From Nitrospirota bacterium (GTDB taxonomy: Bacteria > Nitrospirota > Nitrospiria > Nitrospirales > Nitrospiraceae): a stretch of DNA of 37,324 nt. The stretch lies in NCBI GenBank assembly GCA_028876065.1, contig JAGWTI010000028.1, positions 1 to 37,324 on the forward strand, written 5' to 3'. Under the pieces are notes generated by a model. The model did not search any database, had not been told where the DNA came from, and saw nothing but the letters and a program-made list of their open reading frames with translations. Numbering within the stretch: the first letter of the stretch is position 1; every line of letters begins with the position of its first letter. Both the position numbers and the translations under genes were made by a program. Of this stretch, positions 14-23,472 are shown piece by piece.

Positions 14-325
14 ATGACGCTCGACGAATCTTATGAAACCACTCGACATGCGAAGCCGGTCCGATGCCCCCGATGCAGGAAAGCGTCACCCGTCCTGGTA
101 TTCGATTCCCCGATAGGGGGCATGGTCTGTCCCTGCTGCCACGAGAAACTGATTTCGCTTCGAAAGCTTGCTTCCGTGCTGACCGGTGATCGAGGCGTCA
201 CGACACCGGATACGCGACGGAAAAAAATAGGCCTCCTGTCCACAATGTGGAAAAGTCACCCGGGTGTTGCTGTTCGGCTCTCCCCGGCGGGCACAGCACA
301 TAATGCAGAAAGGAACGACTCATGA
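14..325 (+). CDS. small zinc-ribbon protein, function unknown
   Basis: A 103-residue protein. The N-terminal half carries two Cys-x2-Cys knuckles (CPRC near residue 18 and CPCC near residue 39), the spacing expected of a zinc ribbon. The C-terminal half is basic and has no recognisable domain. An AGGA lies 5 bases before the ATG, and a TAG at 4-6 could be the stop of an upstream gene, so the operon probably continues left of the window. Its TGA overlaps the ATG of the next gene (ATGA), which suggests translational coupling to the ForE-like gene. I do not recognise the family. A role in assembling or binding a metalloprotein would be a guess from context only. Confidence 0.6.
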   Translation: MTLDESYETTRHAKPVRCPRCRKASPVLVFDSPIGGMVCPCCHEKLISLRKLASVLTGDRGVTTPDTRRKKIGLLSTMWKSHPGVAVRLSPAGTAHNAERNDS

Positions 326-1011
326 GCCCATTGGATAGCGCAAAGCGTGAACGTCTGATCGATGTAGGTCCGGCGGGATTCCATCCGCCATGTGCGATGC
401 AGCTTGGTGTCACTCATCCCGATTCCGGATTCGGGCTGTTGTACGGTCACCACGCCCCGGAGGATGAGGTCATCGCCGAGTCCGCAAGGCAACTGTTTAC
501 CCGGAAGAATCCGACGATTTTCCCGGGGCCGTTGTATTTATGGGCTTGGAATCCGGAATGGATGGCGAAAGGGCAAGCGTTGTTAAAACTCGCGGCGGAG
601 ATCCCGAACGTCATGATCATTCCGATGCCGGACTATCGGCCCAAGTACCCCAAGATCGATCCGGAAGAGGTCCTCAACCCGAACCATCCGAACCTGACGA
701 TCTGGGGAAACAAAATCGAAGTGGCCCTGTTCATCGGCATTCACTGCCATTACGCCAACCTGGCGTTGCGGATGGTGCGGGCCGGAACGAACTGCCTCAC
801 GGTTGCCTTCTGCCACGACATTCACGAAGACGCGATGCTCAGCGTGCAGGATCTCGATGTGAAGCAGATGGACCACATTATTGACATCTTTCGAACCGTC
901 CGGAAGGAACTGGGCATCGAGATGCCGAAAGACGGGAAAACGGTCCGGCTGACTGGGACACAGGTCCGCGCGAACCATGGGGTTGAGCGAGTGAATCCAC
1001 GGCCGGCGTAA
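322..1011 (+). CDS. ForE-like (CO-dehydrogenase beta/epsilon-related) subunit, copy 1
   Basis: A 229-residue soluble protein. Conserved blocks are NPTIFPGPL (63-71), MPDYRPKYPKI (102-112), NPNHPNLTIW (119-128) and GIHCH (139-143). The same blocks recur in the gene at 3969-4547, so the two are clear paralogues. From memory, this family is named carbon monoxide dehydrogenase beta-subunit family in Nitrospira genomes and corresponds to the small epsilon subunit of five-subunit 2-oxoacid:ferredoxin oxidoreductases of the reductive TCA cycle (ForE type). I infer that role from family and neighbourhood. Compared with copy 2 it has a C-terminal tail of roughly 30 residues. AAGGA precedes the ATG, which overlaps the upstream stop. 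Confidence 0.65.
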   Translation: MSPLDSAKRERLIDVGPAGFHPPCAMQLGVTHPDSGFGLLYGHHAPEDEVIAESARQLFTRKNPTIFPGPLYLWAWNPEWMAKGQALLKLAAEIPNVMIIPMPDYRPKYPKIDPEEVLNPNHPNLTIWGNKIEVALFIGIHCHYANLALRMVRAGTNCLTVAFCHDIHEDAMLSVQDLDVKQMDHIIDIFRTVRKELGIEMPKDGKTVRLTGTQVRANHGVERVNPRPA

Positions 1012-2043: not shown

Positions 2044-2087
2044 GAGCAGACGGGGTGATCACCATCACCACAACACAGGAGTAACTC

Positions 2088-2183: not shown

Positions 2184-2199
2184 TCCAGGAACCGCCGTC

Positions 2200-2484
2200 A
2201 TGCTCACGAAGAGAGAGACCGACGTCCTGGTCGTGCAGTACCCGAGAGGCTGTACCGCGATCGTCTGGTTCGATCCGGTCGCAGGGTCGATCACGACGAG
2301 CCATGCTGGTCTGCGCGCCACGCTTCGACGGGGAGTCCAGAGCTGGGAGGGGTGTCTTGTCTTGCCTCACGATGGGCACGCTTTCCTGGCTGCGGCGTAT
2401 GACCATCTGTTCCTCAACGGGTATGCCGTCCAGTGGACGAAGGTGACGGCGGTCCTAGAGGTGGGAAATAGGTATCGTGTCTAG
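2200..2484 (+). CDS. unknown 94-residue protein
   Basis: A 94-residue protein with no recognised domain. It looks like a mixed alpha/beta fold with alternating hydrophobic segments near the start (VLVVQY, AIVWFD) and no membrane segment or signal peptide. AGGAA lies 8 bases before the ATG. Its 3' end overlaps the next gene by 8 bases, so it should be translated together with the alpha-like oxidoreductase protein. I do not recognise it. Confidence 0.5.
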   Translation: MLTKRETDVLVVQYPRGCTAIVWFDPVAGSITTSHAGLRATLRRGVQSWEGCLVLPHDGHAFLAAAYDHLFLNGYAVQWTKVTAVLEVGNRYRV

Positions 2485-3982
2485 TACGAAACAGATCGAT
2501 ATGGCCCCGTTTTCAGCTTGGCTTCCCGCGCATCCCAATCAGGACTTCGATCTGGCGGTGAAGATCGTCGGGAGAAGTGCATCGGGTCTCATCGATGAAC
2601 TTGCGACCGTCGCCCAAGCCTTGACCCTTCACGGTTGCCAGGTGATGGTTCAGACCGGCAGGCTGAATGGCGGCTCAGGTCACTTGGTACTGCGCTTCAG
2701 AATTGCGACGCGCCCGTTCTATTCGATGGGGCATGGATGCGATGTGGTCGTGCATCTGGATCAGGACCCTCCCGAATTCGGGCGATTCGGTCTGTCGTCT
2801 GGCAGCGTGCTTGTCTGGGAGCCGCCCGAACAGTCGCCTCTTCACCCTCACCTGCCTGACGGGATCATTGCCTACCCGGTTCCTCTCCGGGAGCTGAACG
2901 CGCAGTACAGCCGGGAAACAGGGGGGAAGGGGTTTGCGGCGATGGGAGTGCTGGCCCATCTGCTCGGCTTCTCCGAGGAGGCCCGGATGGTCTGCCTGAA
3001 GTCCCTCTCGGCATCCCGTTTGTTCGAGAGCGGGTATCAGTTTGCTTCCCGCTCGCTCGTCAAACATGACATCCATTCCCTTCCGCTCGCCGCGCGAAGA
3101 GAGGCGCGCGTCGTACTGGGCCCGGAGAACGCCGTGAAACTCGGGCTTGCCGCGACTCATTGCGAGTTTGAAACGGACTGCGCTGGCGAGCTGGAACGAT
3201 CACCGACACAGTGGATAGCCCGGCACCTCGCTATGGCCGACAAGATGGTCTCGGTGCTGCACAGCGCGCAGTTTCCGGACGTCCAGGCCTATCGAGGCCC
3301 GCAGGGGAAAGTCTTCGCGCTGTTTCGTGGAGATGACGTCTCAATCTTGTCCTCGCTGACTGGCTGTTCCGACCCCAGAATCCTTGTCGCGGCTGACGCG
3401 GTCGACGCATTGCGACTGTTGGTCGTAGGACATCGATTGATCGAGACGCACCGGGCCGGTGTGGTGGGAGTCGTGGTCGAAGAGGCCCTCACGGCACGTC
3501 TCGAAAGTGTCGGAGTCGGAGCATTGGCGGCGGCGATGAGCGGGAAACAAGTGGATGCCGCAGACGGATTCGAAGGAGCTGAAGAAGATGGGGCGTCGGC
3601 CATGTGGGCCGAGCGTGAGGGGGAGGACGACGCGGAGGTGGGATTCATCGCCTGGGGGACGACCCAAGGTGTCGTTCGAGACGTACTGACGCTCTGTCGG
3701 AATCTCGGCATGAGCATCGCCGCCTTGTATCCCAAGCAGATGGTGCCGTTGCCGGTAGCGCAGTTGGAGTCGTTCGCGGCTACCGTAAAACGCGTGGTGG
3801 TGGTGGAGTCCGGTCAGACGAGGGCGCATGCGGATCGCATCGAGGAGGCCTGCTCGTTTCGACCCTCTGTGGTCATGCCAGATAAGGGAACAGCTCTGAC
3901 GCCGATGGACTTGTTTATGAGGGAAGACCTTGGAACAACACACGACAACAGATCGAAAGGAGTTCAGGATGAGTCAGCATGA
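2477..3982 (+). CDS. degenerate 2-oxoacid:ferredoxin oxidoreductase gamma-alpha fusion protein
   Basis: A 501-residue protein with the layout of KorA/PorA gamma-alpha fusions. Residues about 24-205 match the gamma domain (VGRSASG where the family has GQAGQG, then NGGSGHLVLRFR). About 212-345 occupies the place of the pyrimidine-binding alpha domain, and the C-terminal 110 or so residues match the transketolase-C-like domain (AWGTTQGVVRDVL, then VVVVESGQT). The middle domain lacks the usual YPITPS and TSGPG motifs and is shortened, so catalysis of 2-oxoacid oxidation is doubtful. An acidic linker near residue 360-395 is unusual. Start is GTG at 2477, overlapping the previous gene. It is flanked by the two ForE-like genes, which supports the family, but no TPP-binding beta subunit is present. 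Confidence 0.6.
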   Translation: MSSTKQIDMAPFSAWLPAHPNQDFDLAVKIVGRSASGLIDELATVAQALTLHGCQVMVQTGRLNGGSGHLVLRFRIATRPFYSMGHGCDVVVHLDQDPPEFGRFGLSSGSVLVWEPPEQSPLHPHLPDGIIAYPVPLRELNAQYSRETGGKGFAAMGVLAHLLGFSEEARMVCLKSLSASRLFESGYQFASRSLVKHDIHSLPLAARREARVVLGPENAVKLGLAATHCEFETDCAGELERSPTQWIARHLAMADKMVSVLHSAQFPDVQAYRGPQGKVFALFRGDDVSILSSLTGCSDPRILVAADAVDALRLLVVGHRLIETHRAGVVGVVVEEALTARLESVGVGALAAAMSGKQVDAADGFEGAEEDGASAMWAEREGEDDAEVGFIAWGTTQGVVRDVLTLCRNLGMSIAALYPKQMVPLPVAQLESFAATVKRVVVVESGQTRAHADRIEEACSFRPSVVMPDKGTALTPMDLFMREDLGTTHDNRSKGVQDESA

Positions 3983-4547
3983 AATGACCGTTGGTTCGGA
4001 AGGCTATTTGGCCACTCCCGTTTCATCACGGGGGGTCGTGCTGCCGTCGAAGGGAGAAGGCCTTGTCTTGGGTAAGGTCGTTCCTGAGCAGCAGGCGATT
4101 GACGAAGCCGCGCGGCGGCTCCTCAATGCCAAGAATCCCACAATTTTCCCCGGACCATTGGTGCTGTGGGCCTGGAATGAACAGGCCAAGCAAGAGGCGA
4201 AGGTCATCAAGGAATTGTCCATGGCGATCCCGGCCAAGCTCATTCCGATGCCTGATTACCGGCCGAAGTACCCGAAGATTGTTCCGGAGAAGGAGATCAA
4301 CCCGAACCATCCGAATCTGACCATCTGGCAGAACAAGATCGATGTCTGTCTCTTCGTCGGCGTCCATTGTCACCAGTCCAATATCGCGTTGAAAATCATC
4401 CGGGGCGGGACCAACTGTTTCACCATCGCGCTCTGTACCTTCAATGGCGATGACGAGGCCCACATCACGATCCGTGACCTGACAGCCGCCACGATTCAGC
4501 GTATAATGGATTGCGTTGAACGGTTGAAGCGGACTAGACCCTCCTAG
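3969..4547 (+). CDS. ForE-like (CO-dehydrogenase beta/epsilon-related) subunit, copy 2
   Basis: A 192-residue paralogue of the gene at 322-1011, with NPTIFPGPL (56-64), MPDYRPKYPKI (94-104) and NPNHPNLTIW (111-120). The start is the ATG at 3969, preceded by AAGGAG (3957-3962) at 6 bases; an in-frame TTG at 3930 has no comparable ribosome site. It overlaps the end of the alpha-like gene by 14 bases. By family this is the small epsilon-type subunit of a multi-subunit 2-oxoacid:ferredoxin oxidoreductase; the reaction it supports cannot be told from sequence. A near-consensus promoter for the next gene lies inside its 3' end. Confidence 0.65.
   Translation: MSQHEMTVGSEGYLATPVSSRGVVLPSKGEGLVLGKVVPEQQAIDEAARRLLNAKNPTIFPGPLVLWAWNEQAKQEAKVIKELSMAIPAKLIPMPDYRPKYPKIVPEKEINPNHPNLTIWQNKIDVCLFVGVHCHQSNIALKIIRGGTNCFTIALCTFNGDDEAHITIRDLTAATIQRIMDCVERLKRTRPS
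4479..4507 (+). promoter_or_regulatory. sigma-70 promoter inside the 3' end of the ForE-like gene
   Basis: CTGACA (4479-4484), a 17-base spacer and a perfect TATAAT (4502-4507): 11 of 12 consensus bases at optimal spacing. The predicted start near 4514 gives an untranslated leader of about 90 bases before the ATG at 4605, which has GAGGAG just upstream. It would let the cupredoxin-like gene be expressed separately from the upstream operon. Confidence 0.6.
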
Positions 4548-6579: not shown

Positions 6580-8607
6580 ATGACCGCCTTGCTCTTTTGT
6601 TTGCTCGCCTGTTACACGGCCGGCATCCTGCTCCCGCCCTGTCTGCCGGGGCGCCCCAAGGCCCAGAACGTCCTCGCCAACGGCTTGGCGATTGCGGCAA
6701 GCCTGTTCGGCGTCCTCCTCGGCCTGGCGGGGTTGCTCGCGGCCGCACCGCTGACGGCATCCATTTCTTCCACACTCCCTTTCCTCACCTTTGCCGTCAG
6801 GATTGATCCGCTCGCAGCCTTCTTCGTGTTGACGATCTCGCTGGCCGGTCTGGCAGTCTCCATCTATGCCTTGGGCTACCTCACCGAGTTCTACGGACGG
6901 TCGTCCATCGGGCTGATGGGGGCCCTTTACAACGGCTTCCTCCTGTCCATGACCTTGGTGGTCATCGCGGACAACGGGTTCTTCTTCCTGATCGTCTGGG
7001 AACTGATGTCGCTGGTCTCCTATTTTCTGGTCGTGACAGAGCATGAGAAATCAGAGGTCCGCTACGCGGGATTGTTTTACCTGATTATGACGCACGTGGG
7101 GACGGCGTTCATCATTCTGACGTTCCTGATTTTCTTCCAGGAGGCTGGCTCGTTTTCCTTTGCAGCTTTCCGGCATCTGGAGCAGCCCTTGCCCGAGGGG
7201 CTGCGCACTTTGGCCTTTCTGGCAGCCCTGGTCGGGTTCGGCACGAAGGCCGGGATCGTGCCCTTGCACGTCTGGCTCCCCTACGCGCACCCGGCCGCCC
7301 CCTCGCACGTGTCGGCGCTCATGTCCGGGGTGATGATCAAGACGGCGATCTATGCGCTGCTGCGGGTCTATTTCGATTTTCTGGGCGGTCAGTTCCCCTG
7401 GTGGTGGGGTTTTACGATCCTGGCGGTCGGCGCAGTGTCGGCCCTGCTGGGCGTCATGTACGCGCTGATGGAACATGATCTCAAGAGCCTGCTGGCCTTC
7501 TCCAGTGTTGAGAACATCGGGATCATTCTACTGGGCATTGGAGCGGGGATGACCTTTCAGGCCTATGGGCTCAAGGAGTTCGCCGCGTTGGGGCTGTTGG
7601 CCGGCCTCTACCATACGATCAACCACGCCCTCTTCAAGGCGCTGCTGTTCCTGGGCGCCGGGTCGCTGCTCTACGCCACCCACACGAGGAACATGGAAGA
7701 GTACGGAGGGCTGCTCCGGCGGATGCCCTGGACGGGGTTCTGTTTTCTGGTCGGATCGGTCTCGGTCGCCGCCTTGCCGCCGATCAATGGATTCGTCAGC
7801 GAGTGGCTGGTCTTCCAAAGCCTGTTCCTTGGCTTCCACCTGCCGGTGGTGCTGCTGAACCTGATCCTGCCGATCGCGGCCGCGATGCTGGCCCTTACGG
7901 GCGTGCTCGCGCTGGCCTGTTTCGCCAAGGCGTTCGGCCTGTCGTTTCTGGCCCTGCCGCGCAGTGCGCATGCGCGCCATGCCGAAGAAATCCCCGTCGC
8001 CATGCGCCTCGGCATGGGCGGGCTGGCAGCGGCCTGCGTCTTCCTCGGGTTGGCCCCGATGGTGGTCGTGCCGTTGCTGGACCGGGTGACCGAACCGCTG
8101 GCCGGGGTCTCGATCGAAGGCCGGGTGCTGGCGCTGGATGGCTGGGCCCTGGCCCCCACGAACGTGGAGTTTTCCAGCATCTCGACGCCCGCCATCGCGG
8201 TGATGCTGGGTGCCCTGGCCGGGCTCGGCCTGCTGCTGGCCTGGGCCTTCGGCGGCCGCCTCAGGAAGCGCGCCTACAAGACCTGGGGCTGCGGGATCAA
8301 CCTTACGCCTCGAATGGAATATACCGCGACCGGCTTCGTCCAGCCGATCAAGCGGATCTTCAGCACCCTCTACCAGCCCACGATCAAGCTGGAGACGGAG
8401 TTCCTGGAAGAGTCGCACTATTTTGCCAAACACCGGCGGTTCGAGTTCCACATCGAGCCGGTGTTCCAGAAATATCTCTACGATCCGGTGGTCCTGTTCT
8501 TTTCGGCCGTGGCCGACCGCCTCCGGATCGTCCAGGCCGGGAGCCTGCACCTCTACTTGGCCTATATTTTCGTGACCCTGGTCGTGCTGCTCCTGGTCGC
8601 TGTGTAG
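6580..8607 (+). CDS. hyfB: hydrogenase-4 component B-like antiporter subunit
   Basis: A 675-residue, strongly hydrophobic protein of the Mrp/NuoL-M-N family, fitting HyfB/HycC in length. Key features are a glutamate in a transmembrane helix (IVWELMSLVSYF), a helix-breaking lysine stretch (GFGTKAGIVPLHVWLPYAHPAAP) and a second motif around HDLKSLLAFSSVENIG. The C-terminal domain (WGCGINLTPRMEY and onward, ending in a last helix) is the extension characteristic of HyfB. It is expected to move protons or sodium across the inner membrane in an energy-coupled complex. First gene of the seven-gene module; the next gene starts 11 bases after its stop. Confidence 0.85.
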   Translation: MTALLFCLLACYTAGILLPPCLPGRPKAQNVLANGLAIAASLFGVLLGLAGLLAAAPLTASISSTLPFLTFAVRIDPLAAFFVLTISLAGLAVSIYALGYLTEFYGRSSIGLMGALYNGFLLSMTLVVIADNGFFFLIVWELMSLVSYFLVVTEHEKSEVRYAGLFYLIMTHVGTAFIILTFLIFFQEAGSFSFAAFRHLEQPLPEGLRTLAFLAALVGFGTKAGIVPLHVWLPYAHPAAPSHVSALMSGVMIKTAIYALLRVYFDFLGGQFPWWWGFTILAVGAVSALLGVMYALMEHDLKSLLAFSSVENIGIILLGIGAGMTFQAYGLKEFAALGLLAGLYHTINHALFKALLFLGAGSLLYATHTRNMEEYGGLLRRMPWTGFCFLVGSVSVAALPPINGFVSEWLVFQSLFLGFHLPVVLLNLILPIAAAMLALTGVLALACFAKAFGLSFLALPRSAHARHAEEIPVAMRLGMGGLAAACVFLGLAPMVVVPLLDRVTEPLAGVSIEGRVLALDGWALAPTNVEFSSISTPAIAVMLGALAGLGLLLAWAFGGRLRKRAYKTWGCGINLTPRMEYTATGFVQPIKRIFSTLYQPTIKLETEFLEESHYFAKHRRFEFHIEPVFQKYLYDPVVLFFSAVADRLRIVQAGSLHLYLAYIFVTLVVLLLVAV

Positions 8608-8618
8608 GAGGCTGGATC

Positions 8619-9569
8619 GTGCTGCAGAGCCTCGCTCTCGTTGTCGCGCAGGTGATCCTGTTTCTGGTCGTCTCCCCCTTCATCGTGGGAGTAATCCGCA
8701 AGGTCAAGGCGCGCCTGCAATGCCGGCGCGGGGCGAGCCTGTTCCAGCCCTACGCCGACTTGGCCAAGCTGTTCCGGAAGCAGCCGGTCGTCTCGACCAC
8801 CACGTCCTGGATCTTCACGGCCACGCCCTACATCCTGTTCGCCTCCACGCTGGCGGCGGGTCTGCTGGTCCCGGCCTTCGCCTCGCAGATGCCGCTCAAT
8901 TTTGCCGGCAACATCATCGCGCTGGTCTATCTCCTGGCGCTGGGCACCTTCTTCCTGATCCTGGTCGGACTGGACGCCGGCTCGGCCTTCGGCGGAATGG
9001 GGAGCAGCCGCGAGGCGATCGTGGCCTCGCTCACGGAGCCGGCCATGATCATGTCCATCTTTGCGATCGCGCTCACGGCCGGCTCCACCAACCTGAGCAC
9101 GATCGTGCACAAGACGGCGCTGCTGGAAGGAATCGTCACCGATCCCTCGCCGCACCTGATGGCCCTGGCGGCCCTCTTCATCGTGGCCCTGGCCGAGACC
9201 GGCCGCGTCCCCGTGGACAACCCGGCGACTCACTTGGAATTGACGATGATCCACGAGGCGATGGTGCTGGAGTACTCGGGACGGTACCTGGCGCTGGTCG
9301 AGTGGGCGGCCGGGATGAAGCTGCTGGTCTTCCTGACCCTGATCGCGAACGTCTTCGCCCCCTGGGGGATCGCCACCAGCCTGACCCCGGCGGCGATCGG
9401 CATCGGCCTGGCGGTCTACCTCGTCAAGGTCTCGGGCCTGGCGGTGCTGATCGGCGTCATCGAATCCATGTTTGCCAAACTGCGTCTGTTCCGGGTGTCC
9501 GAGTTCCTGGGCGTCGCGTTCATCCTGGCGCTGCTGGCGCTGGTGTTTTTCTACATTCTGCGAGGCTGA
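8619..9569 (+). CDS. hyfC: hydrogenase-4 component C-like (NuoH-type) membrane subunit
   Basis: A 316-residue membrane protein of the complex I subunit 1 (NuoH)/HyfC family. Diagnostic blocks are FQPYADLAKLFRK near the N-terminus and AETGRVPVDNPATHLELTMIH in the middle, the conserved loop that faces the iron-sulfur connecting subunits. The family anchors the peripheral arm to the membrane arm. The start is a GTG at 8619 with AGGAGG (8606-8611) 7 bases upstream. Its stop is one base from the next GTG start. Length is typical for HyfC. Confidence 0.85.
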   Translation: MLQSLALVVAQVILFLVVSPFIVGVIRKVKARLQCRRGASLFQPYADLAKLFRKQPVVSTTTSWIFTATPYILFASTLAAGLLVPAFASQMPLNFAGNIIALVYLLALGTFFLILVGLDAGSAFGGMGSSREAIVASLTEPAMIMSIFAIALTAGSTNLSTIVHKTALLEGIVTDPSPHLMALAALFIVALAETGRVPVDNPATHLELTMIHEAMVLEYSGRYLALVEWAAGMKLLVFLTLIANVFAPWGIATSLTPAAIGIGLAVYLVKVSGLAVLIGVIESMFAKLRLFRVSEFLGVAFILALLALVFFYILRG

Positions 9570-9570
9570 C

Positions 9571-10239
9571 GTGTTCCAGATTTCTCCTCAGCTCGGCTCC
9601 CAGCTGGTGGACCTTTGCGCCGCCCTGCTCCTGCTCACCTGCTTCGCCATCGTGGCGCAGCGGCGGCTCTCAGCCTGCGTGGACCTGTTCGCCCTGCAGT
9701 CGGTCTTCCTCGCGGCCACCGCCGCCTTGGTCGCGTTTCTCACGGGGATCCACCACATCTACGTCGCGGCCGCGCTGACCGTGGTGATCAAGGCCGTCGT
9801 GCTGCCGCGCATCCTCAAGAAAGTGATTGAGCGGCTGAACGTGAGCCGCGAGCTGCAGATGAACATCAACGTGCCCGCCGGGCTGCTGGTCTGCGGCACC
9901 TTGGTGATCCTGGCCTTCTACATCACGCAGCCCATCATCCCCCTGGGATTCCTGCTCACGCGGGACTCGCTGGCGATCGCGCTGGCGATCATCCTGATCG
10001 GCTTCTTTACGATGATCGCCCGCAAGAAGGCGGTCACCCAGGTGGTCGGTTTTCTGGTGATGGAGAACGGCCTGTTCCTGGGGGCGACGGCGGCCGCCTA
10101 CGGCATGCCGCTCATCGTCGAGCTGGGCGTCTTCTTCGACGTGCTGGTGGCGGGCCTGATCATCGGGATCTACACGCACCGGATCCAGGACGCCTTCGAC
10201 AGCGTGGATACCAGCAAACTGACCGTGCTGAAGGAATAA
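9571..10239 (+). CDS. hyfE: hydrogenase-4 component E-like membrane subunit
   Basis: A 222-residue protein with about seven hydrophobic helices. The order of helices and the C-terminal MENGLFLGATAAAYGMPLIVELGVFFDVLVAG-type region (ends with Ile-His-rich helix and a short polar tail) fit HyfE, whose C-terminal half resembles NuoK and carries membrane glutamates. GTG at 9571 follows the hyfC stop by one base; the hyfC 3' end supplies the ribosome site region. The gene order B-C-E matches hyf operons. Predicted role: part of the proton-translocating membrane arm. Confidence 0.8.
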   Translation: MFQISPQLGSQLVDLCAALLLLTCFAIVAQRRLSACVDLFALQSVFLAATAALVAFLTGIHHIYVAAALTVVIKAVVLPRILKKVIERLNVSRELQMNINVPAGLLVCGTLVILAFYITQPIIPLGFLLTRDSLAIALAIILIGFFTMIARKKAVTQVVGFLVMENGLFLGATAAAYGMPLIVELGVFFDVLVAGLIIGIYTHRIQDAFDSVDTSKLTVLKE

Positions 10240-10241: not shown

Positions 10242-11723
10242 ATGGCCTGGCCGCTCCTCGTGTTGATCGCGATGCCGGACCTCGCCGGTCTCGGAAGCCT
10301 GTGGTCCCGCGACCGGCGTCTCGCGGAAGCCCTGCAATGCGGGCAGGCCGGAATCCTCGTGTCCGCCGCCCTGCTCGTCGTCGAGCGGGTCGCGACGGAG
10401 GGGCAGGCCTCGGTCGATCCTTTCCTCCGGGCCGATGCGATGAGCGCCTGGATGGACCTGATCCTCGGCGCGGTAGGCGGGACCGGCACGCTCTACGCGG
10501 TGGGCTACATGGGCGAGGAGCTGGACCGAGGCCGCGTCTCATTGAGACGGTACCGGCAGTTCTTCTGCCTGTTCGACCTGTACCTGGCCGCGATGCTGGC
10601 GGCGGTGAACGTGGAGAACGTGGCGATCATGTGGATCGCCGTGGAGGGTTCGACGCTCTCGGCAGCCCTGCTGATCGGGTTTGAGCGCACGAAGGCGGCG
10701 CTGGAGGCCGGCTGGAAATACGTGATCCTCAGCTCGGTGGGCATCGCGTTGGCGCTGTTTGGAACGATCTTGGTCTACTATTCCTCGGAGCATGTGCTGG
10801 GCGTGACGAGCGAAGCCCTCCGTTGGTCGGAACTCTACCGGGTGGCGGAGTCGCTCGACCCGGCTGCGATCAAGGCGGCCTTCGTGTTCGTCCTGATCGG
10901 CTATGGCACGAAGGCCGGCGTGGCCCCAATGCACACCTGGCTACCCGACGCGCATGCCGAGGCGCCCACCCCGGTGAGCGCCATGCTCTCGGCCAACATG
11001 CTGGCCGTGGCGGTCTACGCCATCCTGCGGTTCAAGGCCGTGGTGGATCGGACGGTCGGCTCGTCGTTTTCCGGCACACTCATGGTAGGGCTCGGGCTTC
11101 TCTCCGTGGCCATCGCAGCAGTGCTCCTGCTCGTGCAGCGGGACTATAAACGGCTCTTTGCCTATTCGAGCATCGAGCACATCGGGATCGCGCTCATCGG
11201 CTTCGGCCTCGGCGGGGCAGGCGTCTTCGCCGCGCTCTGGCACCTGCTGAACCATGCGTTGGCCAAATCCGCCGCCTTCTACGCCTCGGGGCTCGTGTTG
11301 CTGCGGCACGAGCACAAGATGCTGGAGCGGGTGCCGGGGCTTCTGCGGCAGATGCCGCTCGCAGGCGGGGCCATCCTGGTGGCGGGGGTGGCGCTCTCCG
11401 GCATGCCCCCGTTCGGGCTCTTCATCAGCGAAGTGCTGATCGCGATCGGCGCCTATGCCGCAACGCCGGGGGTGGCGTATGGATTGCTGTCGCTCCTGAC
11501 CCTGGCCTTCGCCACGCTCCTCTATCAGGTGCTTAGGATGGCGTTGGGAGAGCCGCTGGAGGCGGGAATGGCCCTGGGCAGCCGAAACCAGACGTTCATG
11601 TCCGCCGCCATTTGGCTCAACCTGGCGGCGTTGTGCACGATCGGCCTGCAGATACCGGCCAGGTGCGGGACCCTGCTCGGGGCCATCGCCCCGTTCTTCG
11701 GCGGCACCATGGAGGCACCATGA
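10242..11723 (+). CDS. hyfF: hydrogenase-4 component F-like antiporter subunit, copy 1
   Basis: A 493-residue antiporter-like membrane protein (NuoN/NuoM type). It has the in-membrane glutamate (MWIAVEGSTLSAALL), the GYGTKAGVAPMHTWLPDAHAEAP lysine stretch and the QRDYKRLFAYSSIEHIG motif, all conserved in proton-pumping paralogues. Length fits HyfF. It starts 2 bases after hyfE. Its TGA overlaps the ATG of the following gene, which encodes a second protein of the same family, so this membrane arm has one more pump-like unit than the E. coli hyc-type arm. Confidence 0.85.
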   Translation: MAWPLLVLIAMPDLAGLGSLWSRDRRLAEALQCGQAGILVSAALLVVERVATEGQASVDPFLRADAMSAWMDLILGAVGGTGTLYAVGYMGEELDRGRVSLRRYRQFFCLFDLYLAAMLAAVNVENVAIMWIAVEGSTLSAALLIGFERTKAALEAGWKYVILSSVGIALALFGTILVYYSSEHVLGVTSEALRWSELYRVAESLDPAAIKAAFVFVLIGYGTKAGVAPMHTWLPDAHAEAPTPVSAMLSANMLAVAVYAILRFKAVVDRTVGSSFSGTLMVGLGLLSVAIAAVLLLVQRDYKRLFAYSSIEHIGIALIGFGLGGAGVFAALWHLLNHALAKSAAFYASGLVLLRHEHKMLERVPGLLRQMPLAGGAILVAGVALSGMPPFGLFISEVLIAIGAYAATPGVAYGLLSLLTLAFATLLYQVLRMALGEPLEAGMALGSRNQTFMSAAIWLNLAALCTIGLQIPARCGTLLGAIAPFFGGTMEAP

Positions 11724-13267
11724 TGGCGCCGGTGAGCGCGGCCGTGATGGTCTTCCTGGGAGCGCCGCTCCTGGCCGGGTTCCTGAGCCTGGCGATCAGG
11801 AAGGCGCGCCTCCTGCATGGGGTGAATCTGGCCACGATGACGGCGCTCGTGGTCGCGGACATGGCCCTGACGGGGCGGGTGGTGGCGCAGGGGCCTTTCA
11901 CGACATTCGGCGACTTCGTCTATGTGGACGCCCTGTCGGCCTTCATCCTGTTCATCATCGCAGCCATCGGGCTGACCTGTTCGTTGTATACTTGGTCGTA
12001 CCTCGATGACTATGTGGCCCGCGGGGTGGTGGCGCCGCATCGCCTCAGCCGGTTCTTTTTCCTGTTTCACCTGTTTCTGTTCGCCATGATCGCGGCGACG
12101 ATGGCGAACAGCCTCGGCGTGCTGTGGGTGGCGATCGAGGGGACCACCTTGGCCACCACGTTTCTGATCGCGTTCTTCAGACAACGCGAAGGACTGGAGG
12201 CCGGGTGGAAATACCTGATCCTCTGTTCGGTGGGGATCGCCCTGGCCCTGTTCGGCACCGTCCTGACCTACTACTCGTCCGTGCGGGTACTGGGGGATGT
12301 CAGCACGGCGCTCAACGTCACGAAGCTCCAGGAAGTGGCGGACCGACTCGATCCGCATGTGCTCAAACTCGCCTTTATCTTTCTCCTGGTCGGCTATGGC
12401 ACGAAGGTCGGGCTGGCGCCGATGCACACCTGGGTGCCCGAGGCCTACAGCGAGGCCCCGGCCCCGGTCACGGCCATGCTGGCCGGCGTACTGGAGACGG
12501 TGGCGGTCTATGCGGTGCTGCGTTCCAAGACCATCGTGGACCAGGCCCTCCCGGCCGAGTTCGCGGGGAACCTGCTGCTGCTGTTCGGGCTGGCCTCCTT
12601 CGGCTTGGCCGCCCTGTTCATCCTGATCCAGCGGGACTATAAACGGCTCCTGGCTTACTCCAGCATCGAACACATGGGACTGGCCATGGCCGGATTCGGG
12701 GTGGGAGGGCCGGTCGGCAGTTTCGGCGGACTGTTCCACCTCCTCAATCACGCGTTGGCCAAGTCGCTGGCGTTTTTTGCCGCCGGCAACATCCATCGAC
12801 GGTTCGAGACCCGCGAGATCGAGGCGGTGAGGGGGCTGTCCCGGACGCAGCCGTTGACGGCGGTCGCGTTTCTGGTGGCCGGGTTTGCTCTGGTCGGCAT
12901 GCCCCCGTTCTCCACGTTCATCAGCGAAGTTTTTGTCGTGTCGGCGCTGGCGACAGAGGCGTTTGCATCCAATACGCTGCAGCTCGGTCAATTTGTAACG
13001 GTCACGATATCCGATGACGTGCGGAGCCTCGGCGTGGTCTCGGTTTTCCTGATCTTCGCGGTGGTATTGTTCAGTGGGTTCGTCCAGCGCCTCACGGCGA
13101 TGGTCTGGGGAGCGCCGCCGGAGGGCGTGAGGTGCGGCGAGGGCTGGGATGTGGGCCATGTGCCGTTGATCGTGACGGCGCTGCTGCTGGTGGCGTTGGG
13201 CGTGGCGCTCCCCGAAGGGCTCAAAGCGTTGCTGGATCAAGCGACGAGCGTGTTGCTGGCAAGGTGA
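11720..13267 (+). CDS. hyfF: hydrogenase-4 component F-like antiporter subunit, copy 2
   Basis: A 515-residue paralogue of the preceding gene, sharing the glutamate helix (LWVAIEGTTLATTFLI), the lysine stretch (GYGTKVGLAPMHTWVPEAYSEAP) and QRDYKRLLAYSSIEHMG, so pump residues appear intact. Compared with copy 1 it has an extra segment near residues 420-440 and a longer C-terminus. ATG at 11720 overlaps the upstream TGA; a second ATG at 11723 has better spacing (7 bases) from GGAGG (11711-11715). The two copies probably arose by tandem duplication and are co-translated. Confidence 0.85.
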   Translation: MMAPVSAAVMVFLGAPLLAGFLSLAIRKARLLHGVNLATMTALVVADMALTGRVVAQGPFTTFGDFVYVDALSAFILFIIAAIGLTCSLYTWSYLDDYVARGVVAPHRLSRFFFLFHLFLFAMIAATMANSLGVLWVAIEGTTLATTFLIAFFRQREGLEAGWKYLILCSVGIALALFGTVLTYYSSVRVLGDVSTALNVTKLQEVADRLDPHVLKLAFIFLLVGYGTKVGLAPMHTWVPEAYSEAPAPVTAMLAGVLETVAVYAVLRSKTIVDQALPAEFAGNLLLLFGLASFGLAALFILIQRDYKRLLAYSSIEHMGLAMAGFGVGGPVGSFGGLFHLLNHALAKSLAFFAAGNIHRRFETREIEAVRGLSRTQPLTAVAFLVAGFALVGMPPFSTFISEVFVVSALATEAFASNTLQLGQFVTVTISDDVRSLGVVSVFLIFAVVLFSGFVQRLTAMVWGAPPEGVRCGEGWDVGHVPLIVTALLLVALGVALPEGLKALLDQATSVLLAR

Positions 13268-13271: not shown

Positions 13272-13352
13272 ATGGGAAAGATTTACTGGAGACAAAACAA
13301 CTATCCGCCCGCATTTGATCGAAGCGGGCGGTTCAACCAAAGGTCGGTATGA
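13272..13352 (+). CDS. putative 26-residue leader peptide before hyfG
   Basis: A 26-codon frame, ATG at 13272 to TGA at 13350-13352. AAGG stands 7 bases upstream, and the stop overlaps the hyfG ATG (ATGA), the same coupling used elsewhere in the operon. The first codons are unusually AT-rich for the neighbourhood. A G+C hairpin, CCGCCCGC (13305-13312) with GCGGGCGG (13324-13331), lies inside it, 17 bases before hyfG. It may be a leader whose translation opens this hairpin, or merely spacer DNA. No homology is recognisable. Confidence 0.3.
   Translation: MGKIYWRQNNYPPAFDRSGRFNQRSV
13305..13331 (+). other. G+C-rich hairpin upstream of hyfG
   Basis: A perfect 8-bp stem of only G and C (13305-13312 with 13324-13331) around an 11-base loop. 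It sits in the gap between the second hyfF and hyfG and ends before the AAAGG ribosome site. It could reduce hyfG translation unless opened by ribosomes on the short leader frame. Confidence 0.45.
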
Positions 13353-14929
13353 CCCCGTCGGAGATATTGCAGGACACATTCGGAAAGGCCATCATCAGCG
13401 CGAGCGTGGTCCACGGGTTTCCCGTGTTCGTGCTGGACAAGGAGACCTTGCCCCTTGTGGCCCACTTCGTCCACACCCATCCGGATCTGCGCGGGTCGCT
13501 CTCGCTCCTCTGGGCGGTGGACCACCGGCCGCGCGAAGCCCGGTATGAACTCTGCTATTTGTTCACGCTGGCGGCCAGGAAGGACTGGCTGTTGCTTCGC
13601 TCGGACCTGCACGGCGATGACCGGCTGTTCCGGTCCATCACGCCGCACATCCATGCGGCCAAGTGGTATGAACGCGAGGTCCGGGACCTCTTCGGCCTGA
13701 TCGCGCAAGGGCACCCGGATTTGCGCCGGCTGGTACGGCATGAACATTGGCCCAAGGGGACCCACCCGCTCAAGAAAGACTTCTCCTGGGATACGGTGAT
13801 GGGGCGGCAAGAGGGCCAGTACGCCTTTCGCCGCATCGAGGGGGAAGGCGTCTTCGAGGTGCCGGTCGGGCCGATCCATGCCGGGATCATCGAGCCGGGA
13901 CATTTCCGGTTTTCGGTCGCCGGGGAGCCGATCATGCAGCTCGAATTGCACCACTTCTGGAAACACCGAGGGGTGGAGAAGCTCTTCGAGCGGCGGCGGC
14001 TGACCGATGCCATGCCGTTGGCCGAGCGGGTGTCCGGCGATACGACCATCGGCCATAGCCTGGCCTACTGCCAGGCGGTCGAAACGCTGCTGGGGGTAGA
14101 CGTGCCGCGGCGGGCCAAGTATTTGCGCAGCCTCTTCCTCGAACTGGAGCGGCTGCACAACCACCTGGGGGATGTCGGGGCCATCTGCAACGACACCGCC
14201 TATGCCCTGGCCCATGCCCACTGCAGCCGGATGAAAGAGCGGATCATGCAACTCAATGACCGGCTGACCGGCTCCCGCTTTCTCCGGGGCGTCAATCTGG
14301 TGGGCGGCGTCGGATGCAATCTCGCGGCCGGGCAGTTGGCCGAGATCGCGGAGGAGGCCGCCGCGATCGAGCGGGATTTTTCCGAGTTGGAGGCCATCAT
14401 CTTCGCCAACGCATCCCTCACGGACCGATTGGAGGCGACGGGGATTCTCAAGGAACGCACCGCCTGGGACCATGCGGTCATGGGCGTGGTGGGAAGGGCC
14501 TCCGGCATCGATCGAGACCTCCGCCGCGACCACCCCTTCGCCGCCTATGACGAGCTGCCGGTGAAGGTGGCCCTTTACCGCTATGGAGACGTGCGGGCCC
14601 GCCTGAGGGTCCGCATGGACGAGATCCATGAGTCCATGCGCCTGATCAGGGAAATCCGTGCGCGGATTCCGCAGGGCGCGATCATGGCGGAACCGTCCCG
14701 CGTCCCGGCGGCAGGCGAATGGGCGCTCTCGGCAGTCGAAGGCTGGCGCGGCGAGATCCTCTATATGGTCATGGCCGGCGAAGAGGGACGGATTCACCGC
14801 TGCAAGGTGCGTGATCCCTCCTTCGTCAACTGGCCGGCGATCCAGTGGGCGGTCCTGGGCAATATCATCCCGGACTTCCCGCTCATCAACAAGAGCTTCA
14901 ACCTGTCCTATGCGGGGAACGACTTGTGA
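13349..14929 (+). CDS. hyfG: HyfG-like large subunit lacking Ni-Fe ligands (Ehr/NuoCD-like)
   Basis: A 526-residue fusion: a NuoC/30-kDa-like domain (about 1-150, with the WYEREVRDLFGL signature) and a hydrogenase-large/NuoD-like domain. In true [NiFe] hydrogenases the L1 motif is R-x-C-G-x-C-x3-H and L2 is D-P-C-x2-C. Here L1 reads R227-V-S229-G-D-T232-T-I-G-H236 and L2 reads D489-P-S491-F-V-N494, so all four metal-binding cysteines are absent and hydrogen chemistry is excluded by known mechanism. This is the pattern of energy-converting hydrogenase-related (Ehr) complexes and of complex I NuoD. The protein probably shapes a substrate or quinone-like site next to the HyfI cluster. Its ATG overlaps a short leader frame. 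Confidence 0.85.
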   Translation: MTPSEILQDTFGKAIISASVVHGFPVFVLDKETLPLVAHFVHTHPDLRGSLSLLWAVDHRPREARYELCYLFTLAARKDWLLLRSDLHGDDRLFRSITPHIHAAKWYEREVRDLFGLIAQGHPDLRRLVRHEHWPKGTHPLKKDFSWDTVMGRQEGQYAFRRIEGEGVFEVPVGPIHAGIIEPGHFRFSVAGEPIMQLELHHFWKHRGVEKLFERRRLTDAMPLAERVSGDTTIGHSLAYCQAVETLLGVDVPRRAKYLRSLFLELERLHNHLGDVGAICNDTAYALAHAHCSRMKERIMQLNDRLTGSRFLRGVNLVGGVGCNLAAGQLAEIAEEAAAIERDFSELEAIIFANASLTDRLEATGILKERTAWDHAVMGVVGRASGIDRDLRRDHPFAAYDELPVKVALYRYGDVRARLRVRMDEIHESMRLIREIRARIPQGAIMAEPSRVPAAGEWALSAVEGWRGEILYMVMAGEEGRIHRCKVRDPSFVNWPAIQWAVLGNIIPDFPLINKSFNLSYAGNDL

Positions 14930-15023: not shown

Positions 15024-15545
15024 ATGTTCCGCATCATCAAAAAGAGCCTCAAGACGGGCGTCGTGACGGGCCAACATCCGGAGGCCGCGCCGGCGGCGCA
15101 ACCGGTCCCTGCAGACGCGAAGGCCACGACGAAGCCGTTCCGACGGTCGTTGGCCATCCGCGAAGTGGACACGGGCTCCTGCAATGCCTGCGAGATGGAG
15201 ATGAACGCCTTGATGAACCCGGTGTACGACGGCGAGCGATTCGGTCTCCACGTGGCGGCCTCTCCCCGCCATGCCGACGCGCTGGTCGTCACCGGGCCGG
15301 TCACCGTGAACATGGAGCGGGCGCTGAAAGACGTCTACAAAGCCACGCCCGATCCCAAGATCGTGATCGCGCTGGGGGACTGCGCCATCACCTGCGGCCA
15401 GTTCAAAGGGAGCTACGCCGTGACCGGCCCGGTCGAGCGGCACATCCCCGTGGACGTCCGCATCCCCGGCTGCCCGCCGCGACCGGCCGAAATTCTGGCG
15501 GCCCTCGAAGACCTGCGGGAACGGCTCGGCAAACCGGCCGGCTGA
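15024..15545 (+). CDS. hyfI: HyfI/NuoB-like iron-sulfur subunit
   Basis: A 173-residue protein of the complex I 20-kDa (NuoB)/HyfI family. Four cysteines in the expected places (C53 and C56 in GSCNAC, C120 in GDC, C150 in IPGCPPRP) should hold one 4Fe-4S cluster equivalent to N2; C124 is an additional nearby cysteine. Unlike HyfG, its metal site is therefore intact. Residues 1-40 form an Ala/Pro-rich extension not needed for the fold. GGAGG (15014-15018) precedes the ATG. No HyfH/NuoI-type two-cluster ferredoxin subunit follows, so the electron donor to this cluster is not encoded here. Confidence 0.85.
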   Translation: MFRIIKKSLKTGVVTGQHPEAAPAAQPVPADAKATTKPFRRSLAIREVDTGSCNACEMEMNALMNPVYDGERFGLHVAASPRHADALVVTGPVTVNMERALKDVYKATPDPKIVIALGDCAITCGQFKGSYAVTGPVERHIPVDVRIPGCPPRPAEILAALEDLRERLGKPAG

Positions 15546-19077: not shown

Positions 19078-21284
19078 ATGGACTACCCCTGAACGCGGCC
19101 ATCAAGAAGCTCCGGTCCTGCATCACGCCCGTTGCCATCCTCCTGACGGTCGGCATCCTATGGCTTGATCTCGTCAGTCCGCTGGGCATCGAGATCCTGT
19201 ACCTCGTCCCTCTGTTGCTCCTGCTGCGCTCACCCAACAAACGCGCGGCGGCCGCGCTCGCCGCAGCCTACACCGCGCTCATCGGCCTCGGCGCCGTCTA
19301 TTCGCCCCCCGGCGTTTCCCCGCAACTCGACGTGGCCATGCGGGTCATCGTCACGCTCGTGCTCTGGGTGACGACGATCCTCATGATGCGCGCCAAGCGG
19401 GCGGAGGAGCGGCTGTTCCTGGCGCAGAAGGAACGGCAGACGATCTTCGATTCGGTGCCGGCCATGATCTGGTACAAAGATGCGGAGAACCGGATCCTTC
19501 GGGCCAACGCCACGGCGGCGCACTCGATCGGGATGCCGGTCCGCGACCTGGAAGGCCGGTCCGTGTACGATCTGCATCCTCACCACGCGAAGCAGTACCA
19601 TCAGGACGATTTGGAGGTCATCAGGACCGGCCGACCGAAACTCGGCATCGTCGAGCCCTACCAGGTCGGGTCCGGCGAGAAACGCTGGATCCGCACCGAC
19701 AAAATTCCCTACCGCGACGACGACGGCCAGGTCATCGGGGTCATCGTGTTCGCCGTGGACATCACCGATTCCGAGCAGCTGGCCGCCATCGAAGCTTCCT
19801 GGGACGGCATCGCGGTCCTGGACGCCCAGGGCGTCTTTACCTACGCCAACCAAGCCATGGCCCGCCTGCACGGATACGAGCAAGCCCAAGAACTGATCGG
19901 CAAGCCCTGGCGGACCGTCCTCGGATATGCCGAAGCGCACCGGCTCGAGCAGGAGGCGCTCCCGCAGATGAAGGCGCAGCGGCACTGGCAGGGCGACGCG
20001 CTCGGATTGCGGCGCGACGGGACCGTGTTTCCGAAGGATCTGTCGCTCACGGCCTTGGAGGGCGGCGGGATGGTCTGCGTCATGCGCGACAGCAGCGAGC
20101 GGAAACGGACGGAGGAGGCGCTGCGCGCCAGCGAAGAACACCTGCGGCAATCCCAGAAGATGGAGGCCATCGGGCGGCTCGCCGGCGGGATCGCCCACGA
20201 GTTCAACAATCTCCTGACGGTCGTGATGGGCCGCTGCCACATGTTGCTCGCGAGCCTGGGCAACGACCGGACCCAGGCCCGTCACGTGACCCAGATCCAG
20301 GAAGCGGGGAAGAAGGCCTCCGACCTCACGCAGCAAATGTTGGCCCTGAGCCGCAAGCAGGTGCTGTACCCGACCGAGTTGAACGTGAACGACGTGGTGA
20401 CGGCGATGGGGCCCGCCTTGCGTTCCGCGCTGGGCGAATCCATCAAGTTCGAGACGAAGCTGGCGCCCTCGCTCGGATGGATCAAGGCCGACCGCGGGCA
20501 GATCGAGCAAGTACTCCTGAACCTGGCGTTGAACGCGCGCGACGCCATGCCCAACGGCGGCCGACTGACGATCGAGACGGCGAACATCACGGGCCACCCG
20601 CGCATGGCTCAGCGGCTCTCGCCGGACACGCCGGGCACGCACGTGATGTTGGCCGTGAGCGATACCGGGGTGGGCATGGACGAGTATACCCGGGACCATT
20701 GCTTCGAGCCGTTTTTCACGACCAAGGGCCCGCGCTGGGGCATCGGCTTGGGGCTCGCCACGGTCTATGGGGTCGTGACCCAGAGCGGCGGGTTCGTCGA
20801 GGTGGAAAGCGAGCCCGGGCAAGGCGCTCGGTTCGAGATCCGCCTGCCCCAGGTGTCGCCGCCGGAACCGGCGGCCCCTGCGGCCCCCCTTCCGCTCGAA
20901 CCGGCCCGGGGCCACGAGACGATCCTGCTGGTGGAGGACGACCCCCTGGTGCGGGAGGTGACCCGGGCGAGCCTCCAAGACTTGGGCTACCGCGTGCTGG
21001 AAGCCGGCGGAGGACAGGAGGCCCTGCGCCTCCTTCGCGAACAGGACGGCCCGGTGCATCTGCTCCTGACCGACGTGATCATGCCGGAGATGAACGGGCG
21101 GGAACTGGCGGAGCAAGTCCTGGCCTTATACCCCCGGATCCCCGTGCTGTTCATGTCCGGGTACACGGCGGACGTGGCGCCGCTCGAAGGCAGCCTCAAG
21201 CATATCGGCGCGTTCCTCACCAAACCCTTCACGCCCGAGGGATTGGGACACAAAGTCCGCGACGTGCTGGACGAGCCCCGCTGA
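19078..21284 (+). CDS. membrane hybrid sensor histidine kinase with apparent 5' frameshift
   Basis: The kinase frame (TGA at 21282) contains an N-terminal hydrophobic region, two PAS-like domains, a HisKA H-box (IAHEFNN; His codon 20196), an N-box ([12 protein letters not shown]), ATP-lid motifs ([16 protein letters not shown]) and a C-terminal receiver (Asp codon 21072, Lys in FLTKPF). In this frame no ATG exists upstream; the first usual start is TTG at 19215, which would cut off a helix. But ATG at 19078 has AAGGAG 5 bases upstream and reads only four codons before TGA. One extra C in the run at 19086-19089 would join it to the kinase frame and restore [12 protein letters not shown] and the first membrane helices. 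It is therefore either a sequencing or real frameshift. Confidence 0.75.
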
Positions 21285-21293
21285 GACGCGCCG

Positions 21294-21329
21294 GCAAACG
21301 GGCCACGACCACGATGACGCGCCGTTTGC
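21294..21329 (+). other. inverted repeat after the first hybrid kinase
   Basis: GCAAACGG (21294-21301) pairs with CCGTTTGC (21322-21329), 20 bases apart, starting 10 bases after the kinase stop. It may be a weak terminator; no T-run follows. Confidence 0.3.
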
Positions 21330-21449
21330 GGAGCGATGACCCGCACATCTTTCGGGCGTCCGGCCGGTCAACCGGACGGGATGTTCCTTCGCATTGTTGT
21401 CGGTTTTTGCCGGTCCCTGCCCTTCGGCGTACGTCCTCCAAAAAAGCGC

Positions 21450-21478
21450 TTGATTCTTGTGAACGGATGCCGTACAGG
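21450..21478 (+). promoter_or_regulatory. possible weak promoter for the second hybrid kinase
   Basis: TTGATT (21450-21455), a 17-base spacer and TACAGG (21473-21478). The match is modest, but it lies in the 217-base gap before the second kinase with sensible spacing to its start. The rest of this gap holds nothing I can support beyond the inverted repeat at 21294. Confidence 0.2.
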
Positions 21479-21522
21479 GCAGGGGAACGCTGCCTCGTCT
21501 TATGACCAAGCTGGAGAAGGTC

Positions 21523-23472
21523 ATGCCACAGGCCACCCCGCTTTCCTTCCTGTTAGTGAGCGAGCGCGCGGAAGAGACCAAGCGGATCACGCAGAGGATG
21601 CGGGAGTTCTACCCCGGCTGCCACATCGAAGCCGCCTATACGGCCGAGGAGGCGCTGGACTGGGTTTCGAGGCGGACCTGCGATGCGGTCCTGCTGGACG
21701 AACGGCTCTCCGGCCGGAGCGGGCTCGAAATCCTGCCCGAGCTCAGACGGCGAACGGCTGACGCCGCCATTCTCGTGCTGACCGAGCACTACGACGCCCA
21801 GGTCTCGACCCACCTCGCACAGGCCGGAGCCGACCACATCCTGCCCATGCAGTCGCCCGTGTATCTGGCGGAGTTGCCCGTCGTGACGGGCACCATGCTG
21901 CAGCACCGCGACCGGCTTGCGCGCTTGGATCTTGCGGACAAGCGCGCGCGGTTCCTCTTCGAGGCCATCAAGGACATCATCTACGAGCTGGACCCCGACG
22001 GGCGGTTCGTCGCGCTGAGTCCGGCCGTGGCGACGATCCTGGGCCGCAACGCGGAGGAACTCCTCGGAACGTCCTACTCGACCGTGCTCGCGCCCCAGGA
22101 CCAGCTGGAGGGGGAACGCCGTGTCAACGAACGGCGCACCGGCGCGAGAGCCACCCGCCGTCTCGCGCTCCGGCTGGTGGGCAAGCCCGGCGCGCAGACC
22201 GTGCCGGTCGAGTGCAGCGCGACCGGGCTCTACAGCGCCGCGAGCCGGCCGCGGTTCCTGGGCACGATCGGGGTCCTGGAGCGCCGGACGAACGGGCGAC
22301 CCGCGACGCCCGCCCAGGCGCGGCCGTTCGACGAGGGGGCCTGGCAGGAAAAAGTCGAGACCGTGCGACGGTTGGCCGGGCGGATCGCGCACGACTTCAA
22401 CAACATGCTGACGATCATCACGGGGTACAGCCAGCTCATCCTGAAAACCACCGCGTCCGACGACCCCCAGCGCCATCGCGTCGAGGAAATCGCGAAGGCG
22501 GGAGAGCGCGCCGCCGATTTGACCCACCAGCTCCTGGCCTTCAGCCGTCGCGATGCGCCGCAGGAGAGCCTGGACCTCAACGGCGTCATCGCCGACCTGG
22601 AGCCGACGCTCCGACAGGTGACCGGACGGAATGTCCAGTTGACGCTGACGTTGGCCCCGGGCCTTGGCCGCATCACCGCCGCCCCGGTGCAGCTTCGCGA
22701 ACTGGTGCACCAACTGGCCGTCAACGCCGTGGAGGCCATGCCGGACGGCGGGCGGCTCACGATTGCGACCGACCAGGTCGAGTGGGACAAGGGCCAAGCC
22801 GGCCGCCAGGGCGAGGCCCGTCAACCGAGCCCGGCCGTCAGGTTGACCGTGAGCGATACCGGGGTCGGCATGGCGCCCGAGGTGCAGGCCCGCCTGGCCG
22901 AACCGTTCTTCACCACCAAGGAGGGAAAATGGTTGGGGTTGGGGCTGGCCATGGTCTACGGGATCGTAGCGCAAAGCGGGGGCGTCCTCAACGTCGTCAG
23001 CGCCCCAGGGCGGGGCACGACGTTCACCGTCCACTGGCCTCGAGCGGACGAGACGCCGCGCCCGATCGATCCGCTCTCCGCGCCGGCGCCTCTCCCGAAG
23101 AGCGCGGCCACCATCCTGCTGGTCGAAGACGAGGTCTCCATCCGGGACCTGGCGCGGACGGTGCTGGAAGAACAGGGGTATACCGTCTTGGAGGCGGGCG
23201 ACGCGGTCGAAGCCATGAAGCTGTCGGAGCAGCACCAGGGCCCCATCCATCTGCTGCTCACCGATGTGGTGATGCCGGGTCTGAACGGATTCGAACTGGC
23301 CGCCCGCCTCCGTCCCCTGCGCCCCGAGATGAAGCGGCTCTTCATCTCGGGCTACATGGGAGGCTCCGCCGCCCAAGCCGCCAAGCCGAAGGATGCGTTC
23401 TTCCTGGAGAAGCCGTTCCTGCCCGAAGCCCTGGAACGGCAGGTCCGTCAGGCGCTGGGCGAGCCCCGCTGA
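21523..23472 (+). CDS. soluble hybrid histidine kinase with N-terminal receiver-like domain
   Basis: About 649 residues without membrane helices. Order: receiver-like domain (phosphoacceptor region LLDERLSG), PAS domain, HisKA (IAHDFNNM; His codon 22390), HATPase (QLAVNAVEAMP, DTGVGMA, GLGLAMVYG) and a C-terminal receiver (Asp codon 23263, LEKPF). The N-terminal receiver has LLVSERA where the acidic pair normally sits, so it may no longer be phosphorylated. The kinase core and the last receiver resemble the preceding gene, including the ending EPR-stop, which indicates tandem duplication. The start chosen is ATG at 21523 with GGAG 6 bases upstream; an in-frame ATG at 21502 adds 7 residues. 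Confidence 0.8.
   Translation: MPQATPLSFLLVSERAEETKRITQRMREFYPGCHIEAAYTAEEALDWVSRRTCDAVLLDERLSGRSGLEILPELRRRTADAAILVLTEHYDAQVSTHLAQAGADHILPMQSPVYLAELPVVTGTMLQHRDRLARLDLADKRARFLFEAIKDIIYELDPDGRFVALSPAVATILGRNAEELLGTSYSTVLAPQDQLEGERRVNERRTGARATRRLALRLVGKPGAQTVPVECSATGLYSAASRPRFLGTIGVLERRTNGRPATPAQARPFDEGAWQEKVETVRRLAGRIAHDFNNMLTIITGYSQLILKTTASDDPQRHRVEEIAKAGERAADLTHQLLAFSRRDAPQESLDLNGVIADLEPTLRQVTGRNVQLTLTLAPGLGRITAAPVQLRELVHQLAVNAVEAMPDGGRLTIATDQVEWDKGQAGRQGEARQPSPAVRLTVSDTGVGMAPEVQARLAEPFFTTKEGKWLGLGLAMVYGIVAQSGGVLNVVSAPGRGTTFTVHWPRADETPRPIDPLSAPAPLPKSAATILLVEDEVSIRDLARTVLEEQGYTVLEAGDAVEAMKLSEQHQGPIHLLLTDVVMPGLNGFELAARLRPLRPEMKRLFISGYMGGSAAQAAKPKDAFFLEKPFLPEALERQVRQALGEPR

Follow-up and report, generated by a model that had tools for sequence, protein, structure and literature searches.

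The window analysed here, a stretch of 37,324 nucleotides, is contig C16 of the genome of an uncultured Nitrospirales bacterium, 3.41 Mb in 158 contigs. It contains a cluster of hydrogenase-4-like genes in the order HyfB-C-E-F-F-G-I, with two HyfF-like copies. Two PF02552 genes and a KorA-like gene are located upstream of the cluster. The features discussed below are as follows.

322..1011, forward strand: orphan Por/For-delta-like protein 1 (PF02552), 59% identical to the delta-type gene of the 2-oxoacid:ferredoxin oxidoreductase operon on contig C23
2477..3982, forward strand: KorA-like protein with PFOR domain II and a weak gamma-like N-terminus, without an adjacent TPP beta subunit
3972..4547, forward strand: orphan Por/For-delta-like protein 2 (PF02552), 56% identical to the delta-type gene of the operon on contig C88
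6580..8607, forward strand: HyfB, antiporter-like membrane subunit, pump Glu/Lys residues kept
8604..9569, forward strand: HyfC, NuoH-like membrane subunit, exact start codon uncertain
9571..10239, forward strand: HyfE membrane subunit, GTG start
10242..11723, forward strand: HyfF-like antiporter subunit 1
11723..13267, forward strand: HyfF-like antiporter subunit 2
13349..14929, forward strand: HyfG-like (EhrL) large subunit, 526 aa, with NuoC-like and NuoD/hydrogenase-like domains and without [NiFe] ligands
14027..14056, forward strand: L1 equivalent R227-V-S229-G-D-T232-T-I-G-H236, from the alignment with HycE, HyfG, NuoCD and 91 homologues
14813..14830, forward strand: D489-P-S-F-V-N, a conserved segment common to NuoD and HycE, not a metal loop, first taken as L2
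14894..14926, forward strand: true L2 equivalent S516-F-N-L-S520-Y-A-G523-N-D-L at the C-terminus, from alignments with HycE and the homologue set
15024..15545, forward strand: HyfI, NuoB-like small subunit with four [4Fe-4S] cysteines

Several other genes are found in the window. A small TPR-like protein is encoded upstream of hyfB at 1028-1354, as is also the case in N. defluvii and N. moscoviensis. The putative exported protein at 4605-5534 combines cupredoxin-like residues (VMHDIQAY, CGFHAYM) with a carboxypeptidase-regulatory-like domain, and in many Nitrospira loci it is conserved at the same place, upstream of HyfB. The membrane protein at 5884-6537 resembles the acetate transporter YaaH, with a score of 42 bits that falls below the NCBIfam cut-off of 50. 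Positions 19215-23472 encode two hybrid PAS histidine kinases with receiver domains; such kinases flank hyf in many Nitrospira loci, possibly by chance, kinases being abundant. Positions 32096-36240 encode a helicase that includes a TnsA-like segment and, after it, a DUF6978 and a DUF1828 protein, of which the DUF1828 protein matches a candidate phage-defence family (PDC-M24B).

The large subunit was aligned to E. coli FHL HycE (7z0s_E) with an HMMER profile and as a single sequence, and a multiple alignment was made that also took in HyfG and NuoCD of E. coli together with NuoCD and NuoD of the window genome itself. The open reading frame and the reading of L1 as R227-V-S-G-D-T-T-I-G-H236 were both borne out, with S229 and T232 occupying the L1 cysteine columns. 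The L2 loop was not where the original prediction had placed it. HycE S-L-D-P-C-Y-S-C-T-D-R corresponds to S516-F-N-L-S520-Y-A-G523-N-D-L in both the HMMER and the multiple alignments, whereas D489-P-S-F-V-N is aligned with R-A-A-T-Y-A-N of HycE and R-A-P-S-F-V-H of NuoD. Since DPCYSC of HycE falls on the C-terminal NLSYAG (N518 to G523), the ligand positions are S229, T232, S520 and G523, and residues S491 and N494, proposed earlier for an analysis of covariation, are irrelevant to the site. The claim that all four cysteines are replaced nevertheless stands, with S520 and G523 in the L2 cysteine columns, and the two CxxC motifs (L1 and L2) of group 4 [NiFe] hydrogenases are absent from the window HyfG.

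The substitutions are shared by the relatives. S229 and G230 are kept in all 91 Nitrospirota homologues and H236 in 90/91. The C-terminal positions are covered by fewer sequences, and in these S520 is kept in 85/85 and G523 in 84/84. Position 232 is more variable, with T in 81, S in 8 and G and D in one each. E182, which is aligned with E21 of MbhL, is also kept in HyfG. Twenty-two homologues match the window HyfG at 71-87% identity, and the closest named records are Nitrospirota and Nitrospira assemblies, including Candidatus Nitrospira defluvii (77%) and N. moscoviensis (75%). Among all sequences compared, only E. coli HyfG and HycE and locus L149 (CGICGFVH, DPCFSC), a true [NiFe] enzyme of the same phylum, have cysteines in these columns. 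Because the same residues are invariant across homologues, the loss is due neither to chance nor to sequencing error: an entire conserved clade has lost the [NiFe] site. As no frameshift is present and the residues are conserved in relatives, the idea that L1 or L2 had been misread through an error of sequencing or frame was rejected. Cysteines contributed from adjacent positions were also rejected; those in L146 (SGCSS) and in some distant members (GCDM) fall in non-ligand columns and are absent from the window clade. Two adjoining Ehr (energy-converting-hydrogenase-related) clusters (L142 2865-16913 and L143 1-11675) differ in L1, which is of the SGDTT type in one and of the SGTSS/SGTDS type in the other. 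An AlphaFold2 model of HyfG (from A1) had pLDDT values of 20-45 over residues 125-208 and 492-526, and was for this reason left out of the reading of the cavity.

A maximum-likelihood tree placed all 38 Ehr sequences in one clade (support 100/100), which joins HycE/HyfG (95/87) rather than NuoD, with deep joins less certain on account of long branches. The profile scores also group the window HyfG with HycE/HyfG over NuoD, and its best solved relative is FHL HycE (E 1.3e-98). The dN/dS values between homologues were 0.08-0.16, which corresponds to purifying selection. The protein ends three residues (NDL) past the L2 equivalent, so the cleavable C-terminal extension of HycE/HyfG is missing. 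No match to HypD was obtained in the 158 contigs of the genome. Of the 37 Ehr-positive genomes in the set of relatives, 28 lack HypD, the window genome among them, and HypD does not co-occur with Ehr (Fisher p = 0.80). The absence of the four cysteines, of the maturation extension and of a HypD match supports the earlier view that the complex cannot be a hydrogenase.

In complex I, a Tyr in L1 and a His in the N-terminal loop of NuoD bind the quinone head group. In the multiple alignment and the homologue set these columns hold G230 and I181, D-Y of L1 being replaced by S-G and T-H-G of the N-terminal loop by I-I-E. Thus, with both the cysteines and the NuoD quinone residues replaced, the cavity is not a NiFe site, and it is not a quinone site of the standard kind either. 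The original prediction had likened HyfG to both Ehr complexes and NuoD. The likeness to NuoD extends to the loss of the cysteines but not to the quinone residues or to the tree and profiles. The likeness to Ehr is in agreement with the label used in PMC10284858 and PMC12342949.

The four cluster cysteines of HyfI are kept in 87/87 homologues, HyfB retains the NuoM-type set of Glu, Lys, Lys and Glu, and both HyfF copies retain the first and last Glu and the first Lys of this set. The membrane subunits score as hydrogenase 4, and the clusters are intact in most loci that hold them whole. The window thus encodes a group-4-hydrogenase-like complex without NiFe ligands, in which antiporter-like membrane subunits are combined with a NuoB-like small subunit that has its cluster cysteines, and we assign it to Ehr with near certainty.

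No open reading frame with a CxxCxxCxxxC motif was found in the window or in 26 of 28 other Ehr loci tested. In the two exceptions, the motif is located at the locus end, outside the clusters (L143), or antisense inside the hyf genes (L154). The positive controls, E. coli hyf (HyfA, HyfH) and the true hydrogenase locus L149, both contain the motif. Ferredoxin subunits of the HyfA/HycB and HyfH/HycF types were found in none of the Ehr clusters examined. Because no such open reading frame is present, the electron-input module of hydrogenase 4 is missing from the locus, with the proximal cluster kept; ferredoxin-like subunits could be located elsewhere in the genome.

The upstream PF02552 genes belong to a family that in Aquifex is the delta subunit of the five-subunit PFOR/OGOR (PMC10052474). 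The other PF02552 genes of the genome are located in two 2-oxoacid:ferredoxin oxidoreductase operons, with all five subunits found in the C23 operon and four recognised in the C88 operon, and each window copy is most similar to a different operon. A second copy of the Por/For-delta-like pair at 322-4547 is present on contig C113 of the same genome. Por/For-delta genes adjoin the Ehr cluster, upstream or downstream, at no fewer than 17 loci (the window, L036, L039, L046, L051, L063, L072, L073, L074, L078, L084, L088, L098, L148/L174, L152, L155 and L175), and these extend to a distant family of the phylum. The KorA-like gene was found in 10 of 100 genomes, nine of which are Ehr-positive (Fisher p = 0.0005, relatedness ignored); genome G038 has the gene and no Ehr. 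Since the Ehr loci of N. defluvii and N. moscoviensis contain neither the delta-like genes nor the KorA-like gene, we consider this module to be accessory. A CODH has been reported beside the hyf-like operon of Ca. N. nitrosa (PMC5596200). Genes like the PF02552 genes of the window are likely to be behind that remark, and their identity as Por/For-delta suggests that the remark be corrected. Coupling to a CO dehydrogenase was rejected for the window: its PF02552 genes are paralogues of Por/For-delta, and the open reading frames scanned included no recognisable CODH catalytic gene.

We propose, with a probability of about 40% for the explanation as a whole, that Ehr would still be an ion-translocating oxidoreductase, coupled to the proton or sodium motive force. 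A soluble low-potential partner would dock where HyfH would otherwise sit and exchange electrons with the HyfI cluster; candidates are a ferredoxin or a five-subunit pyruvate/2-oxoglutarate:ferredoxin oxidoreductase, and the orphan delta-like proteins may assist the docking. The emptied, polar NiFe cavity would bind a small organic molecule as acceptor or donor. This would most likely be a quinone or quinol, in a different pose from that in complex I, although quinone binding is a guess because the NuoD Tyr and His are absent. The complex would probably be run in reverse, feeding the reductive TCA cycle with electrons of low potential. For this specific partner and direction we have still less confidence than for the whole scheme. 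The proposal is consistent with the clade-wide replacement of cysteines, the single Ehr clade under purifying selection, the preserved HyfI cysteines and pump residues, the lack of HyfA/HyfH and HypD, the Por/For-delta neighbours and the co-occurrence with the KorA-like gene. It also agrees with the published Ehr assignment (PMC10284858, PMC12342949) and with the route of ferredoxin reduction for the reductive TCA cycle in Nitrospira being not known (PMC8407350). The two Nitrospira loci without delta/KorA-like genes and the KorA-like gene of G038 argue against it, as does the fact that the usual candidate for ferredoxin reduction is the 2M complex I (PMC6606698). Ferredoxin-like subunits encoded away from the locus would also count against it. 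A more specific version, in which PF02552 adaptors replace HyfA/HyfH and dock a pmf-driven Ehr on POR/OGOR, is a long shot; if true, it would provide a low-potential electron route, missing so far, for CO2 fixation by nitrite oxidisers.

The same preserved HyfI cysteines and pump residues, and the same lack of HyfA/HyfH, would also suit a forward ion pump that conserves energy by re-oxidising a low-potential carrier present in surplus, with quinone or some other acceptor taking up the electrons, for example under O2 limitation or on organic substrates. The general suspicion is that Ehr complexes link charge translocation to redox reactions in the cytoplasm (PMC6349859). However, the hosts use high-potential donors and are short of low-potential electrons (PMC8407350), and the cluster has no donor gene as a constant neighbour, so we regard forward pumping as improbable, at about one chance in four by our judgement. 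The loss of the NiFe site, the NuoD-type quinone residues and the electron-input subunits might instead suggest that the large and small subunits are merely structural and that only the antiporter arm works, as a non-redox ion transporter. This is less probable still, given that the HyfI cluster cysteines are kept in every homologue and that the HyfG cavity loops are among its most conserved parts.

Annotation as hyf has linked the genes to the hydrogenase part of a formate hydrogenlyase-like complex (PMC5596200, PMC6131200), an idea in line with the HycE match and the hydrogenase 4 scores of the membrane subunits. It is very hard to reconcile with a cluster without NiFe ligands, maturation extension and HyfA/HyfH in a genome without HypD, nor was expression of the N. 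moscoviensis complex raised by H2, as stated in PMC12342949. That HyfG is the relic of a decaying hydrogenase, as the lost catalytic ligands might imply, is refuted by conservation: dN/dS is approximately 0.08-0.16, the clusters are mostly intact and the same substitutions occur clade-wide.

The proposed mechanism bears on the source of low-potential reductant in Nitrospira, which are widespread nitrite oxidisers. Testable handles are provided by the corrected active-site residues (S229, T232, S520, G523), by the lack of electron-input subunits and by the Por/For-delta genes that recur next to the cluster.

An Ehr complex of the Nitrospira type without a nickel-iron site is already known. Such complexes, with function unknown, have been published (PMC10284858, PMC12342949, PMC12542776), so the loss of the cysteines is not in itself new. 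The hyfBCEFGI gene set of Nitrospira is described in PMC5596200, about half of Nitrospirales genomes encode Ehr (PMC12342949), and the concept goes back to Marreiros et al. 2013, as cited in PMC10284858 and PMC12342949. In the literature searched we found no mention of the missing HyfA/HyfH, the comparison with NuoD residues, the Por/For-delta association, the corrected L2 or the HyfI cysteines in 87/87 homologues. The window complex shares the organism group, the missing NiFe ligands and the gene set with the published complexes; we found no difference and consider it to be another member. With FHL and hydrogenase 4 (HycE, HyfG; 7z0s) it shares the membrane subunits, a fused NuoC-NuoD-like large subunit, EPGHFR and the L1 His, but it lacks the four cysteines, the maturation extension and HyfA/HyfH. 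NuoD and NuoCD of complex I belong to the same fold family, have no NiFe ligands and also end just past the L2 equivalent, whereas they contain D-Y and T-H-G, and the window HyfG groups with HycE/HyfG. Two other proteins of the NuoD type are encoded in the genome, one on C89 as a fused NuoCD and one on C11 as a separate NuoD, and the complex on C11 is probably the genome's putative 2M complex I. The pmf-driven electron transfer from quinol to ferredoxin proposed for the Nitrospira 2M complex I (PMC6606698) is the role that we suggest for Ehr, but the two are different complexes, with a large subunit of the NuoD type in the former and of the Hyf type in Ehr.
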